40,620 nucleotides of DNA from a virus, in the IMG/VR virus record IMGVR_UViG_3300035670_000523, positions 1 through 40,620 of that record. One strand, 5' to 3'. The notes below the pieces were generated by a model. That model was not told where the DNA came from. It saw only the letters and a program-made list of their open reading frames with translations, and did no database searches. The position numbers and the translations under genes are program-made. This document shows, one piece after another, positions 9,550 to 28,735 of this stretch. Each line of letters starts with the position of its first letter. Positions within the stretch are counted from its first letter, which is position 1.

Positions 9550-9797
9550 TAGTGACTAAGATTTGATTTTATTTTAGCTTCATGAGCACGACGTTCTATC
9601 GCATGATACTCGGCAATTGACGCTTCAGCTCGCAACCAATCTGAGGTCTCCCCCGGGTCGAGATCTAGCTGCTGTTCACCTCGTTTTTCGATGTGATCGG
9701 CAATCTCGTGCAGCAGCACCGCCGCTTGGCCTGCATGTATGTGAAGACAAAACAGGCTTGGGTTATTGCGAAGTTGTAGCCATAAGGGATCAGTCAT
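9549..9797 (-). CDS. Small unknown protein with ATGACTGA start
   Basis: An 82-residue protein (MTDPLWLQLRNNPSLF...) with a central amphipathic helix (AAVLLHEIADHIEKRGEQQ). Upstream in-frame starts exist, including an ATG 6 nt earlier, but the ATG at 9797 is chosen because it opens with ATGACTGA, shared with seven other genes here, and has AGGAG 10 nt upstream. Function unknown. Confidence 0.55.
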   Translation of the reverse strand: MTDPLWLQLRNNPSLFCLHIHAGQAAVLLHEIADHIEKRGEQQLDLDPGETSDWLRAEASIAEYHAIERRAHEAKIKSNLSH

Positions 9798-9810
9798 CAG
9801 CATTAATCTC

Positions 9811-10068
9811 CTAATTTGGCGCAAAATTGGACATAGTTAGTTGCTCCGGCTGCTGGGCTTCCAGCTCGTCAGCTATTTCTGCGATGTAGCCGTGGATGAA
9901 CTGGTGTGCTGTAAAGACACCGGCGTCGGCGGCAGTATCCCCGAGTGGTTGGTCCAATCGTATAAACTCGGAGATCACACGCAGGGCGGCGGCAACGGAG
10001 TAGCGGTGAACTACGTGTGGCAACGCTGCGTCAAGCACGGCTTCAGCAGCGGGAGAAAGTTCAGTCAT
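9811..10068 (-). CDS. Small unknown protein of GC-rich island
   Basis: An 85-residue protein (MTELSPAAEAVLDAA...) beginning with ATGACTGA. It is helical and acidic, with Ala-rich and Glu-rich ends. Its DNA is visibly richer in G+C than the flanking genes, like the next three genes upstream. I recall similar MTELSPAAxAVLxA proteins in Synechococcus phages and hosts; function unknown. Confidence 0.65.
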   Translation of the reverse strand: MTELSPAAEAVLDAALPHVVHRYSVAAALRVISEFIRLDQPLGDTAADAGVFTAHQFIHGYIAEIADELEAQQPEQLTMSNFAPN

Positions 10069-10082
10069 AGAAGTGATGTTGA

Positions 10083-10337
10083 CTAATCGGGCTGGGATTC
10101 AAGAGCTTCCTTGATAGTCTCAATGTCTTGGTGAAACTCTCTGGTGTCGTCAGCGCCAGTGGCAATGGCATAGAGAGCACCAAGCGCCTGCTCCTTCAAG
10201 CTCGGCGGCTCGGGCTGGGCCAATGCGGCACTGGCGCGATCCACTACAGCCTGAAATCTTGGCCCGTCGTTGGTGTCAATAACGTCATCTTCAATTGCCT
10301 CTAGGAGCTCAGCGCACAGCGCTCGGAAGTCAGTCAT
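10083..10337 (-). CDS. Small cyanophage-type protein with PPSLKEQAL motif
   Basis: An 84-residue protein starting MTDFRALCAELLEA with a PEPPSLKEQALGAL segment at about residues 42-55 that recurs in the two genes upstream. A longer frame reaches 10406, but the ATG at 10337 matches the ATGACTGA start motif and overlaps the upstream stop by 8 nt (ATGACTGA contains both codons). I recall this family in marine cyanophages; no function is known to me. Confidence 0.7.
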   Translation of the reverse strand: MTDFRALCAELLEAIEDDVIDTNDGPRFQAVVDRASAALAQPEPPSLKEQALGALYAIATGADDTREFHQDIETIKEALESQPD

Positions 10338-10695
10338 CGAGCTGCTCCAGGGCGCGGCGAATAATGTTTGCTTGGTCCGAGCAAATCCCCTCTGGCGGGG
10401 TGTCATCAGCCATTTTGATGGCTTCAGAAAGTGCTTGTAACGCCTGCTCCTTCAAGCTCGGCGGCTTGGGGCGGCGGCGGGCGCGGAGCGAGGGGATCAG
10501 CTCGGAATGCGTGGCCAGGTTCTGCCAGTGAAGCCACTCGCAGCACGCCTCCAGCTCCTGGTCGGCGCCTGCTTGCGCACCTGCGGCATATGCATTTACC
10601 AGCAGGACATCAGCGTGTTCACGCTCGTTAAACCAGTCGTTTTCCCACCTCGTGAGAAGCTCTGTGGGTGGCGTCATTGGGTGTTGATCAGTCAT
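10330..10695 (-). CDS. Small cyanophage-type protein, TPPPEL/GADQEL/SLKEQAL family
   Basis: A 121-residue protein with three segments shared with its upstream neighbour: TPPTELLTRW near residue 8, AGADQELEACCEWL near 42, and RRPKPPSLKEQALQAL near 75, ending in LDD. It begins MTDQHPMTPP at an ATGACTGA that overlaps the upstream stop by 8 nt. This family is common in Synechococcus phages as I recall; function unknown. It is a paralogue of the next gene. Confidence 0.75.
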   Translation of the reverse strand: MTDQHPMTPPTELLTRWENDWFNEREHADVLLVNAYAAGAQAGADQELEACCEWLHWQNLATHSELIPSLRARRRPKPPSLKEQALQALSEAIKMADDTPPEGICSDQANIIRRALEQLDD

Positions 10696-11056
10696 CGATA
10701 GTCTCCAGTGCTTTACGAATAAACTCAAGTTCACGCATTTGGTCCGAGAAAAACTCACCGCTCTTCTCAAATCGTTTCACACTTTCCAAGGCCAGTTCCT
10801 TCAAACTCAGTGGCCTCGGGCGGCGGTAGTTATAGAACTCAGTTACATCCTCTTCCTCCCACGCAGCGCACTGCTTGAGGTAATTTCCACAAGCCAGTAA
10901 CTCCTGGTCAGCGCCCCATTGGGCGGCCTCGTTGGCAATGCGGAACCACAGCGCTTCGGGATCGGTGTCGCCTTGGAACCGGGACCAGTGGCGCACCAGC
11001 TCCGGCGGTGGTGTGATCGGCGCCATTTTGTTGACGTTAACAAATTGGTCAGTCAT
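10688..11056 (-). CDS. Small cyanophage-type protein, paralogue of adjacent gene
   Basis: A 122-residue protein beginning MTDQFVNVNK and carrying ITPPPELVRHW, GADQELLACGNYL and RRPRPLSLKELALES in the same order as the next gene, ending IDD. It is therefore a tandem duplicate at about family level. It opens the GC-rich island and starts with ATGACTGA. Function unknown. Confidence 0.75.
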   Translation of the reverse strand: MTDQFVNVNKMAPITPPPELVRHWSRFQGDTDPEALWFRIANEAAQWGADQELLACGNYLKQCAAWEEEDVTEFYNYRRPRPLSLKELALESVKRFEKSGEFFSDQMRELEFIRKALETIDD

Positions 11057-13115: not shown

Positions 13116-13200
13116 TAGCTCAGGCGGGACTCGAACCCGCAAGACCATAACGGTCGACGCATTTTAAGTGCGTTCTGTTTACCTATTTCAGCACTGAGCC
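13116..13200 (-). tRNA. tRNA-Leu (UAA)
   Basis: A full class II cloverleaf: acceptor GGCTCAG/CTGAGCT (first pair G-U), D-stem CTG/CAG, anticodon stem ACGCA/TGCGT with loop CTTAAAA (anticodon UAA), a long variable arm GACC-GTTAT-GGTC, and T-arm GCGGG-TTCGAGT-CCCGC. The discriminator is A and CCA is not encoded. There is no group I intron, unlike many cyanobacterial tRNA-Leu(UAA) genes. Confidence 0.93.
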
Positions 13201-13203
13201 GTA

Positions 13204-13279
13204 TGGTGCGCGTCGTCAGGATCGAACTGACCTCGGGCGAATTATGAGTTCGCTGCCTTCACCAGATGGCTAGACGCGC
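13204..13279 (-). tRNA. tRNA with CAU anticodon (elongator Met or Ile2)
   Basis: Acceptor GCGCGTC/GACGCGC pairs perfectly, D-stem GCC/GGC, anticodon stem GCGAA/TTCGC with loop CTCATAA (anticodon CAU), and T-arm GTCAG-TTCGATC-CTGAC. The discriminator A is followed by an encoded CCA. It lacks the three G-C pairs of an initiator anticodon stem. CAU may read AUG (Met) or, if lysidine-modified, AUA (Ile2); sequence alone cannot decide. Confidence 0.92.
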
Positions 13280-18122: not shown

Positions 18123-18251
18123 GAATGATCCGGGGTCTACACCAGTAGTAACAATAACGACAGCTCTTTTATAAAAAGGGCTGTCTATTTTGTTGGCTTT
18201 TTCAAGCTCTTCTTTAACTTTTTGCCATTTTTTTAATTGATCAGAGTCCAT
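18114..18251 (-). CDS. Small unknown cyanophage-type protein (45 aa)
   Basis: A 45-residue leftward reading frame, ATG start. It begins MDSDQLKKWQKVKEELEKA (amphipathic helix), continues with FYKRAVVIVTTG, and ends DPGSFLD. The helix plus 'FYxRAVxI' layout resembles small cyanophage proteins I recall. It overlaps the 3' end of the DUF6717-like gene by 9 nt. Unknown role. Confidence 0.5.
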   Translation of the reverse strand: MDSDQLKKWQKVKEELEKANKIDSPFYKRAVVIVTTGVDPGSFLD

Positions 18252-18334
18252 ACCACGAGGGCAGACATAAAAGTACAATAGCGTCGTATTTACGCGTAAT
18301 CGTAATAACTGCTACTTATTGAGAAAACAACTTA

Positions 18335-18439
18335 TTAGCGTTTTTTGCCGCCATTTTTTGCTTTTTTGGCCGTGGCGTTGCCAACGTGTTGCTTAGAACC
18401 AGGCTTGGAGGCGGATTTTTTCTTTTTTGAAGTCGCCAC
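18335..18439 (-). CDS. Tiny lysine-rich basic protein (34 aa)
   Basis: A 34-residue leftward frame, GTG start (MATSKKKKSASKPGSK...). Eleven of 34 residues are Lys, one Arg, with no acidic residues, and Ser/Ala/Gly between them. The composition is protamine- or histone-tail-like, suggesting nucleic-acid binding. There are no in-frame stops and the codon choice looks coding. It lies about 230 nt from the alternating-repeat tract. It could still be a spurious frame. Confidence 0.5.
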   Translation of the reverse strand: MATSKKKKSASKPGSKQHVGNATAKKAKNGGKKR

Positions 18440-18511
18440 GGCGCTAAAAGTTATATAAAACTATTTTAGATCAAAAAATCTGCGCCGAAATTTTTTATAG
18501 AGGCTGTCATT

Positions 18512-18661
18512 ATGCTGTCATTCAAAATGTTGGACCTCAGTTTACCCAGAAAATTATCAGAACCTTCTCGCCCCCGCCGTCGACCAAAGTCTATATATAA
18601 AAAAAAGGCCGAATTGCAGGCAGGATTGCGGTCACAAATCGCGGCCACTAAATATAACTAA
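18512..18661 (+). CDS. Small basic protein (49 aa)
   Basis: A 49-residue rightward frame, ATG start, with an Arg/Lys-rich centre (SRPRRRPKSIYKKKAELQAG) followed by an amphipathic helix. An internal ATG at 18527 is an alternative start. Its stop codon is 4 nt from the alternating pyrimidine-purine tract. A nucleic-acid-binding role is a guess from composition. Confidence 0.4.
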   Translation: MLSFKMLDLSLPRKLSEPSRPRRRPKSIYKKKAELQAGLRSQIAATKYN

Positions 18662-18664
18662 CCT

Positions 18665-18759
18665 CGCGTGCGTGCGCGTGCGCGTGCGCGTGTGTGCGCG
18701 TGTATGTATGCGCGTGTATGTATGCGCGTGGGCGGGGGTGCGTGCGTGCGTGCGTGTGT
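18665..18759. repeat. Alternating pyrimidine-purine (CG/TG/TA) tract, Z-DNA type
   Basis: Positions 18665-18730 alternate pyrimidine and purine without a single break for 66 nt, made of CG, TG and TA steps. Two tandem copies of CGCGTGTATGTATG lie at 18697-18710 and 18711-18724. After a GGCGGGGG interruption a further 22 nt alternate (18738-18759, mainly TGCG repeats). Such tracts adopt Z-DNA under negative supercoiling. Confidence 0.9.
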
Positions 18760-18965
18760 TTCTATTCTAGATCAAACCCTGCGCTGTGTGACAGTTGGGG
18801 AACCGGCTGGGCCCCCTTGACGTTCGAACCGGTTAGCCCTTACCTTGAGGTCACTGGAGAGCAGGCCTCGGCCAGAACCCAGTCCGCACTTAGACAATTC
18901 GGCACCGGCAAGGGCAGTAGCGTCACGCAGCGATGCGGCGAAAGGAACTCCCGGTGTAGATAAAT

Positions 18966-19038
18966 ATGCAATTCATGCAGCAGCGCAATGCAGCCGAACC
19001 ACAGTAGGCCACTGGATATGCACCGACTACTGCATGAA
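18966..19038. repeat. ATGCA repeat cluster with 9-bp inverted repeat
   Basis: ATGCA occurs at 18966, 18975, 18988 and 19018, and inverted (TGCAT) at 19031. TTCATGCAG (18972-18980) and CTGCATGAA (19030-19038) are perfect complements around 49 nt. This could be an iteron-like binding region or the base of an RNA stem. Confidence 0.5.
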
Positions 19039-19126
19039 CACAAAGAGTCTGTAACTAAGGCAAACTATGGGCGCTAAATGTTAACAACTCTCGCCCAGTT
19101 GTAACTGAATACAACCTTTGTCAGGG

Positions 19127-19287
19127 TGTAGTTAGTTACAGTGCCGCAGATCTTCTTGTCCAGCGTACCTGTGTTTGATGCAGGTACTCTGGCCATTGGA
19201 CATTAACCTCCCACGTCGGCGCTTATCCGTACGATGGCGAGGTTAGTTATCAGCCAATGATCATTCTGTGCACTGTAACTAACTACA
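19127..19287. repeat. Perfect 18-bp inverted repeat enclosing two hairpins
   Basis: TGTAGTTAGTTACAGTGC (19127-19144) is the exact reverse complement of 19270-19287, 125 nt apart. Inside, hairpin 1 has GTCCA/TGGAC (19158-19162, 19197-19201) and GTACCTG/CAGGTAC (19165-19171, 19181-19187). Hairpin 2 has TAACCTC/GAGGTTA (19204-19210, 19239-19245) closed further by CGTCG/CGATG. The whole folds as a three-way junction as RNA, or as a large cruciform as DNA. Confidence 0.85.
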
Positions 19288-19387
19288 TACCTAGCAAATT
19301 GTTTTCACTTTTCCTCCAGAGTTTTACTCTGTGGGGTTTCATCTTGTCTGTAACTTGTCTGCGGGCAGGTTCAATTTAGGACCAAAC

Positions 19388-19405
19388 ATGATCATTCTTG
19401 ATCAT
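19388..19405. promoter_or_regulatory. 7-bp hairpin/palindrome ATGATCA-TTCT-TGATCAT
   Basis: ATGATCA (19388-19394) and TGATCAT (19399-19405) are perfect complements around TTCT. TGATCATTCT also occurs at 19258. It lies about 85 nt before the first rightward gene and could be an operator. Confidence 0.45.
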
Positions 19406-19416
19406 AGACTTTTGTC

Positions 19417-19474
19417 GATTCTCTCCTTAAACTTAATAGTTTAATGAGGGATTCTCCCTCAAACCTAACAGTTT
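19417..19474 (+). repeat. Imperfect tandem direct repeat in leader of first rightward gene
   Basis: A 26-nt unit at 19417-19442 (GATTCTC...TAATAGTTT) recurs as a 25-nt copy at 19450-19474 (GATTCTC...TAACAGTTT) with a period of 33 nt. The second copy overlaps a 7-bp hairpin TGAGGGA-TTC-TCCCTCA (19445-19461). It ends 15 nt before the start codon at 19490. TTGTCG-16-TAATAG at 19412-19439 is a possible promoter inside it. Confidence 0.55.
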
Positions 19475-19489
19475 CTCAGGTGTATCTAC

Positions 19490-19816
19490 ATGACTGAACT
19501 GACAATTAAGACCAACAATCAACCACGGCAGCCTATGTCTGGCTTGACCATTGAGCTATTTGTTGGTGACAAACAAGCTACAAAGATTCGCCAACAGTTC
19601 GATTATTTGTCTGACGAAGAGTTTGAGAATGAATCATTCATAAGTTACAAAGGTTATGTATACGCTATGTCCGACTTCATGCGAATCGATCAGGATTCTA
19701 CCGGCGACCTAGCACAACTAGGTTGGCACGGTTACAGTTCAGATTCATTCTTTAGTGGAGCGTTAATTAAACTATGTGATGACGGCGATGTAATTATGGG
19801 ACGCTTCTACTCCTGA
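19490..19816 (+). CDS. Unknown protein, first gene of rightward arm
   Basis: A 108-residue protein starting with ATGACTGA (MTELTIKTNN). It has an acidic C-terminal half (YLSDEEFENESF, then IKLCDDGDVIMGRF) with a beta-rich look. It heads the rightward arm and is preceded by the repeat-bearing leader, so it is probably an early gene. No family recognised. Confidence 0.65.
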   Translation: MTELTIKTNNQPRQPMSGLTIELFVGDKQATKIRQQFDYLSDEEFENESFISYKGYVYAMSDFMRIDQDSTGDLAQLGWHGYSSDSFFSGALIKLCDDGDVIMGRFYS

Positions 19817-19860
19817 TATTTGTAACTAACCCAACACACAATCACAAACTTCCTATCATC

Positions 19861-20163
19861 ATGCCCGACACAGTTGCGGCACGCGAGCTACAACTTTACG
19901 CGTGCAATTTTTCAGAAGCTCACTACAACATGGTGGGCAAAACGTTATCTAAGTTTCACAAGCAAGGTACGTTTAATCTTGACCGTGCCATTGGTTATGT
20001 TGATCGCTATTTGTTAATTCCTGCTGCTAAAGATTACGTTCAATGTTTCGGCAGTATGGAAACATCGTGGAAGATATTATTCTCCAAACCGACACGTTCC
20101 CACGCTGCTGAAACTATTGCTCGTGAGTTTGTTGCCGAGTTTCGGTTAGGTAACTATTGGTAA
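19861..20163 (+). CDS. Unknown small protein
   Basis: A 100-residue protein (MPDTVAARELQLYACN...) with ATG preceded by ATC ATC. It is helical with aromatic residues (LDRAIGYVDRYLLIPAAKDY). I recall similar proteins in cyanophages. No function known. Confidence 0.6.
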   Translation: MPDTVAARELQLYACNFSEAHYNMVGKTLSKFHKQGTFNLDRAIGYVDRYLLIPAAKDYVQCFGSMETSWKILFSKPTRSHAAETIAREFVAEFRLGNYW

Positions 20164-25968: not shown

Positions 25969-27159
25969 ATGAACGACGAACTTTTCACGAAACTGCAGAA
26001 CTTTCGCGGCGCACTTAACGCGTCGTCTCTTGAGAGGGAACACGTTATCGATGGTCTTTTGGCCACTTTGTTGAGCAAACAAAACGCATTTTTGCTTGGA
26101 GCTCCTGGTACAGGCAAATCTGATCTAGTGCGTAGCATTTGCAACGGAATTAATGGGAGTAATTATTTCGGTTATTTGCTTACTCCCACCACCGATCCTT
26201 CTGAAATTTTTGGTCCTGTAGCAGTAACAAAATTGCTTAAGGACGAATATACCCGCGATATTACAGGTTATTTACCTGATGCACACATTGGTTTTTTGGA
26301 CGAGTTATTCAGAGGTAGTTCAGCCATTCTTAACTCTCTACTAACTCTGCTTAATGAGAGAACATTTAATAACGGTAGGGACACTATAAAAACACCAATT
26401 CAATCAATAGTCGCAGCGACAAACAGTTGGCCTGACGAAGAAGCGTTGCAGGCTTTTGCGGATAGATTTTTATTCCGCCCCACCGTGGACTTTCTCCGTA
26501 AACCAGTATCGAAAAGAAGACTTGACGAGTGGGCTTTGGGTCTATCAGAACGTCCAAAAGTAGGTGCTCATCTGTCTATGAATGAGCTTTATGAATTACA
26601 GGAATTCGTAGATGAAATTAAAATTTCAGAGGAGTTTTTAGATCGTTTTAGTAATGTTTGGGAGATGCTTGCCACAAGAAACATAGTTATTAGTGACCGT
26701 AGACGTGTGCAGATCCTTAAGTTTCTGAAAGCTTGGGCTCTGGTTCAAGGGGACGATCAGCTGTTTTCAGAACACATGCACAATAGCCTTATTCATATTG
26801 TCTACCAAACGAAAGAAGATCAAGACATAATTGAGGAGGTGCTTGAGCAAGAAGTACCGACTGCTGATCGTGTGTTTAAGGATGCTAAGAGAGCTGCAGC
26901 TGGAATTATGGCAGAATATACAAGTCATGCACATAAACATAAAGCTAAGGGTCTAGGAGATTTAAATGATTACGTTGTCAATCTCCGTAAGTACCACAAG
27001 GATATGCAAACCGTAAGGGATAAAGTTGGTGAAATTCTTGACGGCACCCGCTACCAAATGTCAATTGGGACACGATCAACGGGAGTAAAGTTGCAGCAGA
27101 ACCTTCAAAATCATTGTGATACGCTTGCTCGTGCTCTAAGTGAATTAGCTTCCGATTAA
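25969..27159 (+). CDS. MoxR/CobS-like AAA+ ATPase
   Basis: A 396-residue protein with Walker A GAPGTGKSD (residues 44-52), LLTPTTDPSEIFGPV (about 72-86, the MoxR-type insert), Walker B IGFLDELFRG near 106, a sensor Asn in VAATNSWP near 148 and an arginine finger region ADRFLFR near 162. This is the MoxR/RavA/CobS clade of AAA+ ATPases, which works with a VWA-domain partner as an unfoldase or metal-insertion machine. The VWA gene follows at once. It is not enough to call it cobS, since no cobalamin genes are here. Confidence 0.85.
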   Translation: MNDELFTKLQNFRGALNASSLEREHVIDGLLATLLSKQNAFLLGAPGTGKSDLVRSICNGINGSNYFGYLLTPTTDPSEIFGPVAVTKLLKDEYTRDITGYLPDAHIGFLDELFRGSSAILNSLLTLLNERTFNNGRDTIKTPIQSIVAATNSWPDEEALQAFADRFLFRPTVDFLRKPVSKRRLDEWALGLSERPKVGAHLSMNELYELQEFVDEIKISEEFLDRFSNVWEMLATRNIVISDRRRVQILKFLKAWALVQGDDQLFSEHMHNSLIHIVYQTKEDQDIIEEVLEQEVPTADRVFKDAKRAAAGIMAEYTSHAHKHKAKGLGDLNDYVVNLRKYHKDMQTVRDKVGEILDGTRYQMSIGTRSTGVKLQQNLQNHCDTLARALSELASD

Positions 27160-27184
27160 ACACCAATACACGTAAAACAGCACA

Positions 27185-28735
27185 ATGAACCTCACAACTC
27201 ACACCGAGATTATTCGGATCGCAGCTAACGAACCTATCACACTGACATGCTCAGCTCTGGCAGATTTTCTTTGGGAGGATTTTGTTCGCGATAGTCGCCC
27301 ACTTGTAACTTACCTGATAGACCACTATAAAGTTAAACAATTATCTAGGTTCGGTAAAGAGTTATTTGAAAGATTGTACTCAGCAGATAACGTTAACTGG
27401 TTAGTAAGTGAAGACGCCTATGAAACATACTTTCGCAAAGTATGCGACGGGGACATTACAGCTATACCTGAAGGCTACAAACCAGAAAACGGTATATGGT
27501 ATTCCATTATGAGTGACTTAAGTCAAGCGGCGGCTTGGCCGGAACTCTTAAAACGATCGGTGGGTGATCAGTTTAACGCTGGTAATAATGCTGTAAATAT
27601 ACTCAATGAATTATCCAACGTAATTGTTGAAGCTATAGAACGGGGTCAGTTTAATGTAGATGTACTAACGGCTAGTAAAAGCGCTTTAGACCAATTGCGC
27701 CAACAATATCAAGAAGCTTTAAATAATGGGGATAAGAAAAAAGCTGATCAACTACGAAAGGAGGGTAAAGCTCTGGGGGAAGCTATTAACGAAGCTATTC
27801 AAAATGTGAAAGACAAAATTCAAAGTAACTCACACCGAATAATTGATAATACGATTAAAGAACACGATAAAACTAACGAGGCTTTAAATACACTGCACGG
27901 TGAGCAGAAAGGAACAGGCACACATAAACCAGATCTCGAAGCAAAAAAAGATTTAGCAAAAAAAATTAGAAATAATAAAGAACTAAAAATGCTTATAAAA
28001 AAATTAGGAGCTCTTAGAAAAATTTGGATAGAACGAAAAAAAGCAAGGAAAGCAAAAGATAAATACGAAGCAATTACAGGAGCTTGTTTTGACGCAGACG
28101 TAACGAAAGCATTTCCTGCCGAGATAGCGTTGGCGGCCACGCCGGAAGGCAAAGCCTTATTTGCGCTTAAATACGCTCAGAAAACTTTGCTCACAAAAGA
28201 CTACACATCGCATCGTAAAGATATTGGTAAAGGTCCCATCGTTATGTATATTGACGTATCAGGTTCAATGAGCGGTGAAGCTGAACTGTGGAGCAAAGCC
28301 ATCGCCATCGTAATTGCTGAGGAAGCTTTAAAAGAAAATCGCGAAGTTCAGATCCACTTGTTCGATACAAGAATCGATAGCTCAGTCTGTTTGGACTCAA
28401 ATAGAAAAAATAACAGCGAGTTGCTTGATTTTGTTTGTACGTGGTCACTAGGAGGAGGCACTAGTTTTAATGCTGTGCTTGCTCACGCTTTAGATCGCGC
28501 AAGAATAAACGAAAAGGCAGACATACTTATGATTACAGACGGAAACAGTGAGGTACACGACAATTACATAAAGAGGTTAAATAAATTTAAGCAGGATACT
28601 GGTATTCAATGGAATACAGTGTGTATAAATGCTGCAGTTCCAGCAATCTGTAAAAACTTTAGTGATGAGATATTCTCAGTAGATTTGTCAGATCAGGATA
28701 ATGCGGTAGATTCAATCCAACGCTGCATTCGGTGA
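27185..28735 (+). CDS. VWA-domain protein, partner of the MoxR-like ATPase
   Basis: A 516-residue protein. Residues 150-310 form a long charged coiled coil (KKADQLRKEGKALGEAIN). The C-terminal VWA domain has the MIDAS site: DVSGSMSG at about residue 357, a Thr in GGGTSFN near 427, and an Asp in ITDGNSEV near 450. MoxR-VWA pairs couple ATP hydrolysis to remodelling of a target bound by the VWA MIDAS. It resembles CobT-like or DUF58-neighbour VWA proteins in overall plan. The target is unknown. Confidence 0.85.
   Translation: MNLTTHTEIIRIAANEPITLTCSALADFLWEDFVRDSRPLVTYLIDHYKVKQLSRFGKELFERLYSADNVNWLVSEDAYETYFRKVCDGDITAIPEGYKPENGIWYSIMSDLSQAAAWPELLKRSVGDQFNAGNNAVNILNELSNVIVEAIERGQFNVDVLTASKSALDQLRQQYQEALNNGDKKKADQLRKEGKALGEAINEAIQNVKDKIQSNSHRIIDNTIKEHDKTNEALNTLHGEQKGTGTHKPDLEAKKDLAKKIRNNKELKMLIKKLGALRKIWIERKKARKAKDKYEAITGACFDADVTKAFPAEIALAATPEGKALFALKYAQKTLLTKDYTSHRKDIGKGPIVMYIDVSGSMSGEAELWSKAIAIVIAEEALKENREVQIHLFDTRIDSSVCLDSNRKNNSELLDFVCTWSLGGGTSFNAVLAHALDRARINEKADILMITDGNSEVHDNYIKRLNKFKQDTGIQWNTVCINAAVPAICKNFSDEIFSVDLSDQDNAVDSIQRCIR

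Follow-up and report, generated by a model that had tools for sequence, protein, structure and literature searches.

A conserved structured element, almost certainly of RNA type, precedes the early genes in a lineage of uncultured phages

The analyzed window is an IMG/VR viral contig of 40,620 bases, in which the genes are mostly directed leftward up to about 17.7–18.6 kb and rightward from position 19,490 on. The same divergence of a leftward late block and a rightward early block was observed in three relatives of 86–87 kb, corroborating the location at a transcription switch that had been noticed in the first-pass annotation. The rightward genes include those for a MoxR-type ATPase, a VWA protein, a PolA-type DNA polymerase, and an exonuclease, and the phage encodes a primase/helicase in addition to its own PolA. 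The gene for the MoxR-type ATPase is followed by that for the VWA-domain protein (25969–28735), and this pair is common to dozens of relatives. Genes for tRNA-Leu(TAA) and tRNA-Met(CAT) adjoin each other on the minus strand (13116–13279). In a patch from 9600 to 11000, the G+C content is 53–63% in most 200-bp steps, versus about 43% in the surroundings, and a low-complexity GT/GC-rich tract (18666–18760) separates the leftward genes from the structured region described below.

The nearest isolate found, Synechococcus phage S-EIV1 (KJ410740), was identified via the proteins of one relative (G018), whose portal-like and PurM-like proteins are 42% and 82% identical, respectively, to those of S-EIV1. 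Because this isolate is a Synechococcus phage, the host of the phage studied here is probably a cyanobacterium. The octamer CCACG[CG][CG]G is found throughout the genome in excess and with a strand bias (12:3 in the contig, 36:11 in G018, 37:6 in G005, and 60:9 in G015, at an expectation of 0.7–5.8 per strand). In the two genomes that were binned, its polarity does not switch at the border of late and early genes; the octamer may be a signal of the Chi type or one for packaging or segregation.

The region between the divergent gene blocks contains a perfect inverted repeat, with arms of 18 nt that are 100% complementary and separated by 125 nt, and the arms enclose two nested hairpins, GTACCTG/CAGGTAC (19165–19187) and TAACCTC/GAGGTTA (19204–19245), all as originally annotated. 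The three-way junction proposed on this basis is indeed the minimum-free-energy fold of 19120–19295 (−84.4 kcal/mol), with a z score of −10.0 (minus strand, −8.7) and none of 200 shuffles folding as well. This is the only exact 18-mer inverted repeat within 200 nt in the whole contig, and 20 mononucleotide shuffles of the contig yielded at most one 14-mer repeat. A chance repeat was ruled out because the fold beats all 200 shuffles and no shuffle came near an 18-mer repeat, and a coding explanation was ruled out because the indels in the alignment of the relatives are not in threes.

The junction is the middle part of a non-coding structured stretch of about 450 nt (Table 1). The entire region 19040–19490, which the first-pass annotation had singled out for folding, is strongly structured in comparison with shuffles (z = −10.2), as is 19127–19287 (z = −10.3), and 19288–19489 has a z score of −7.3 on the plus strand versus −3.3 on the minus strand; for 18770–19040, the folding z score gave no signal of structure. 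In the pseudoknot upstream of the junction, 98.5% of the cells are paired, with 15 double-change cells versus 4.2 in shuffles. In the GATTCTCTCC...GAGGGATTC hairpin downstream of the junction, the lower stem contains a U.G wobble that nearly all relatives share (L078 has a U-A pair instead), and the changes in the apical (upper) stem are compensatory among relatives. The alternative hairpin GAGGGATTCTCCCTC would overlap and exclude the GATTCTCTCC...GAGGGATTC hairpin in an attenuator-like manner. One relative has a second copy of the latter hairpin about 450 nt past the first (L101:1598). The phased GATC(A) repeats are a possible DNA-protein site. The first-pass annotation had recognized the junction but missed both the longer structured region and the recurrence of the helix core that is discussed below.

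Table 1. Features of the structured region and the adjacent early genes (positions in the window)
Feature	Position	Strand	Basis or remark
Conserved structured non-coding region before the early operon (proposed leader RNA)	19044–19489	+	folding z, relatives
TGTAACTAAG, near copy of the GTAACTAAC motif, upstream of the pseudoknot	19050–19059	+	
H-type pseudoknot upstream of the junction	19070–19102	+	stem A 19070–19073/19092–19095, stem B 19084–19089/19097–19102
P1, 5' strand (left arm), core GTTAGTTAC	19127–19144	+	inverted-repeat search, covariation
P2 hairpin of the three-way junction	19160–19192	+	both sides changed in 8 of 11 pairs
P3 hairpin, three sub-helices	19194–19259	+	both sides changed in 18 of 20 pairs
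Conserved CAC ... GATGG internal-loop motif of P3	19212–19238	+	
P1, 3' strand (right arm), core GTAACTAAC	19270–19287	+	inverted-repeat search, covariation
G+C-rich hairpin downstream of the junction	19313–19336	+	fold; sequence variable among relatives
GATC(A) repeats phased at 10 bp	19380–19405	.	alignment of relatives, row L105 disregarded
Hairpin GATTCTCTCC...GAGGGATTC	19417–19454	+	identical fold in 17 relatives
Alternative hairpin GAGGGATTCTCCCTC (GAGGGATTC...CCCTC), putative	19446–19460	+	sequence inference
First rightward early gene, 108 aa	19490–19816	+	weak PHROG 1845 match
GTAACTAAC copy	19822–19830	+	30 nt before the ATG of the gene at 19861

The three-way junction was found in at least 22 distinct phage contigs, every one of them metagenomic, with a length of 150–172 nt across the members. 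The exact arm is present in nine other viral contigs, eight of which carry the element; L045, with a lone arm that is due to chance only, was rejected as a member. A gapped arm-to-arm pattern search retrieved 13 contigs. A covariance model that was built from 14 members, and whose E-values are rough owing to a short calibration, added seven divergent members (L116, L091, L114, L117, L096, L100, and L101; 49–77 bits), which were sought in loci fetched by the MoxR/VWA protein, that is, independently of the arm sequence. In all records that are long enough, the position and orientation of the element are constant, roughly 6–12 kb upstream of the MoxR/VWA genes; of the contigs that extend 10 kb or more upstream, about 15 have the full junction, and each near-complete relative has a single full-length sense-strand match to the covariance model. 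At the place of the junction, four more (L026/L077, L030, L032, and L090) have a shorter or rearranged hairpin, three of them with different arm sequences.

Close DNA relatives were not found in phage and plasmid collections, the element had no match in any isolate phage or plasmid, the arm pair had no match in 84,980 host genomes, and neither the search of host genomes with the VWA protein nor the use of the 1003-aa left protein as a handle for relatives gave a result. S-EIV1 is the nearest isolate by protein, yet neither the element nor GTAACTAAC is detectable in it, and it was ruled out as a member. Rfam 15 at the gathering cut-off retrieved only tRNAs from the contig and five divergent relatives, and a permissive Rfam scan of 18200–19500 gave only sub-threshold matches, none of them over the junction.

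The covariation that the first-pass annotation had proposed to look for in related phages is present: the pairing is conserved in homologous phages and is accompanied by compensatory changes. Among the 22 members, 91.0% of the cells are paired, versus 75.3% after shuffling, and both sides have changed in 31 of the 46 pairs. There are 161 double-change cells versus 45.5 ± 5.8 in column shuffles, a comparison that is inflated by the relatedness of the members, and only 22–38 when the 3' partners are slid by 1–3 columns, a control that retains the relatedness. The covariation score behaves likewise (0.464, versus 0.173 shuffled and 0.05–0.08 slid). Because this alignment (A5) had been fitted to the covariance model, the count was redone on a plain, unguided MAFFT alignment of 14 members (A3), which contains 75 double-change cells versus 22.6 in shuffled and 7–16 in slid controls. 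The P1 core GTTAGTTA/TAACTAAC hardly varies at all, in part because it was this core that led to many of the members, and its flanks covary (e.g., CACAGTGTTAGTTACA/TGTAACTAACACTGTG in L036). The preservation of the structure in at least 22 phages, while the letters changed, argues that the junction is almost certainly a real and hitherto undescribed conserved structured element of RNA type.

The core of the right arm is not confined to the junction. A count over 48 loci of relatives gave 58 distinct contexts of GTAACTAAC, versus 4.5 expected. Outside of the arms, an ORF start is at most 40 nt away in 35 of the 62 copies, compared to 18% of random positions, and the motif recurs 1–30 nt upstream of early-gene start codons, with some copies only 1–4 nt before the ATG. 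The contig itself has a single exact copy of this start-associated kind (at 19822), and the motif is barely enriched there (7 copies with one mismatch versus 3.2 expected). One relative (L131:1700–1780, contig G036) carries GTAACTAAC in the loop of a strong hairpin of its own, close to the homologous site. The recurrence of GTAACTAAC resembles that of the start-associated sequences of Cluster K mycobacteriophages and makes it plausible, though short of proven, that the junction and the early genes are linked in regulation.

Several observations bear on whether the element acts as RNA or as DNA. In Watson-Crick-only folds, isolated 1 × 1 mismatches on the plus strand are G.U in 23 cases versus A.C in 7. 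Relative to shuffles, the z score of the plus strand is lower than that of the minus strand by 1.0 on average across the members, and by 3–4 in L116, L114, L100, L101, and L032; the sub-clade L044/L049 folds better on the minus strand. These results provide moderate support for an RNA of the plus strand, that is, the strand of the early genes. The support is only moderate because the members are related, and, given the preference of L044/L049, a plus-strand RNA is less than proven for every member and a DNA role is conceivable. A sigma-70 scan found no plus-strand promoter at the structured region.

We assign a probability of about 0.5 to the reading that the junction is a structured RNA domain in an untranslated early-operon leader of about 450 nt that acts in cis. 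This reading fits best because of the position before the early operon, the series of covarying RNA-type elements, and the strand bias. The plus-strand transcript would start upstream of about 19044, and folding of the leader would produce the pseudoknot first, after it the three-way junction with P1 as its perfect closing helix of 15–18 bp, and finally further hairpins, whose end is 30–40 nt short of the first early start codon. Contacts of the folded leader, most likely in cis, with a phage protein or with the host machinery for transcription or translation may set the extension or the translation of the early mRNA, with the put RNA of HK022 as an analog. The phased GATC sites (19380–19405) have the look of a DNA-level feature and may indicate that a promoter lies downstream of the junction; such a promoter would place the junction outside of the early mRNA and would argue against the leader reading. 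A rather improbable reading is that the junction is the hub of an RNA-based early-gene switch, in which P1 is opened by a protein or by translation; since P1 holds the 9-nt start-associated motif together with its complement, its opening would enable a single RNA to act simultaneously on many early starts.

An unlikely alternative to the early-operon leader is a separate trans-acting small RNA of 160–200 nt, the 5' strand of which (GUUAGUUAC) would pair with GUAACUAAC in early leaders and set their translation. The over-representation of GTAACTAAC and its enrichment near ORF starts would be expected of such targets, GTTAGTTACA is present in the P2 apex of L053 and L055, and S-EIV1 lacks the element and the motif together. 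However, the complement of the motif is locked in a perfect helix, the contig itself shows hardly any enrichment of the motif, and P1 varies on single strands, on the right arm in L114, L096, L100, and L101 and on the left arm in L117 and G005, so that neither strand is the sole constraint. That the arms are just DNA operators, i.e., a protein site TGTA-N6-TACA present in two inverted copies that pair fortuitously, would explain the near-invariance of the P1 core as well as the near copies of the motif, which share one orientation upstream and downstream, reminiscent of mycobacteriophage stoperators. We consider this quite improbable: P2 and P3 are unlike the motif and covary extensively, the P1 flanks covary and the other motif copies do not follow, and L030, L026, and L032 retain a long hairpin at this place with different arm sequences.

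Among the functions that the first-pass annotation had offered, a non-coding RNA fits best. A replication origin or single-strand initiation site, functioning either through folded DNA or through a primer RNA, appears unlikely as well, although the element is unique and conserved, lies in the main divergent intergenic region, and folds well on both strands, with phased GATC repeats nearby and PolA and a primase/helicase encoded by the phage. At the element there is no reversal of the GC skew, and CCACG[CG][CG]G keeps one polarity on either side; both findings are suggestive only, as unidirectional origins can lack such a switch. In addition, G.U pairs are favored over A.C. Positive evidence was found neither for a partition nor for a packaging site. 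The pRNA of phi29, a phage RNA that is part of the packaging motor, is comparable in length and has a three-way junction, too. The size and the junction of the present element recall this pRNA, and many contigs end near the element, but it lies by early, not packaging, genes, the end repeats of G018 and G005 are far away, and Rfam has no match, making a pac/cos site or a phi29-like pRNA very improbable.

The element would represent a new class of structured RNA in a lineage of uncultured phages that is related to a freshwater Synechococcus phage, and its members are numerous enough for studies of structure and function. The motif shared by the closing helix and the early starts leads to a testable hypothesis of the way in which a single RNA could set early expression.

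Conserved RNA motifs of cyanophages, often located in 5' UTRs, include manA, wcaG, and PhotoRC-II (PMC2864571); at the Rfam gathering cut-off, none of them matches the junction. In Cluster K mycobacteriophages, the SAS, a short asymmetric repeat of 13 bp (GGGATAGGAGCCC), is found near start codons, and the extended SAS has an additional imperfect inverted repeat of 17–18 bp with a spacer and precedes many genes (PMC3203893). GGGATAGGAGCCC itself has no match in the contig with up to two mismatches, but GTAACTAAC in the relatives is likewise a short repeat just before a subset of starts. The extended SAS differs from the present case, in which there is one element per genome and its interior covaries. 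The nearest working analog is the put RNA of HK022, a cis-acting structured RNA that is encoded where phage early transcription units begin, consists of two stem-loops in about 70 nt, and has E. coli RNA polymerase as its target; RNAs of this antitermination type suppress termination without protein factors (PMC9378689). With a three-way junction of 150–172 nt instead of two stem-loops, the element falls outside of the put type. Its position upstream of the early genes, which is found in all members, would be in keeping with a put-like place in a transcribed early leader.
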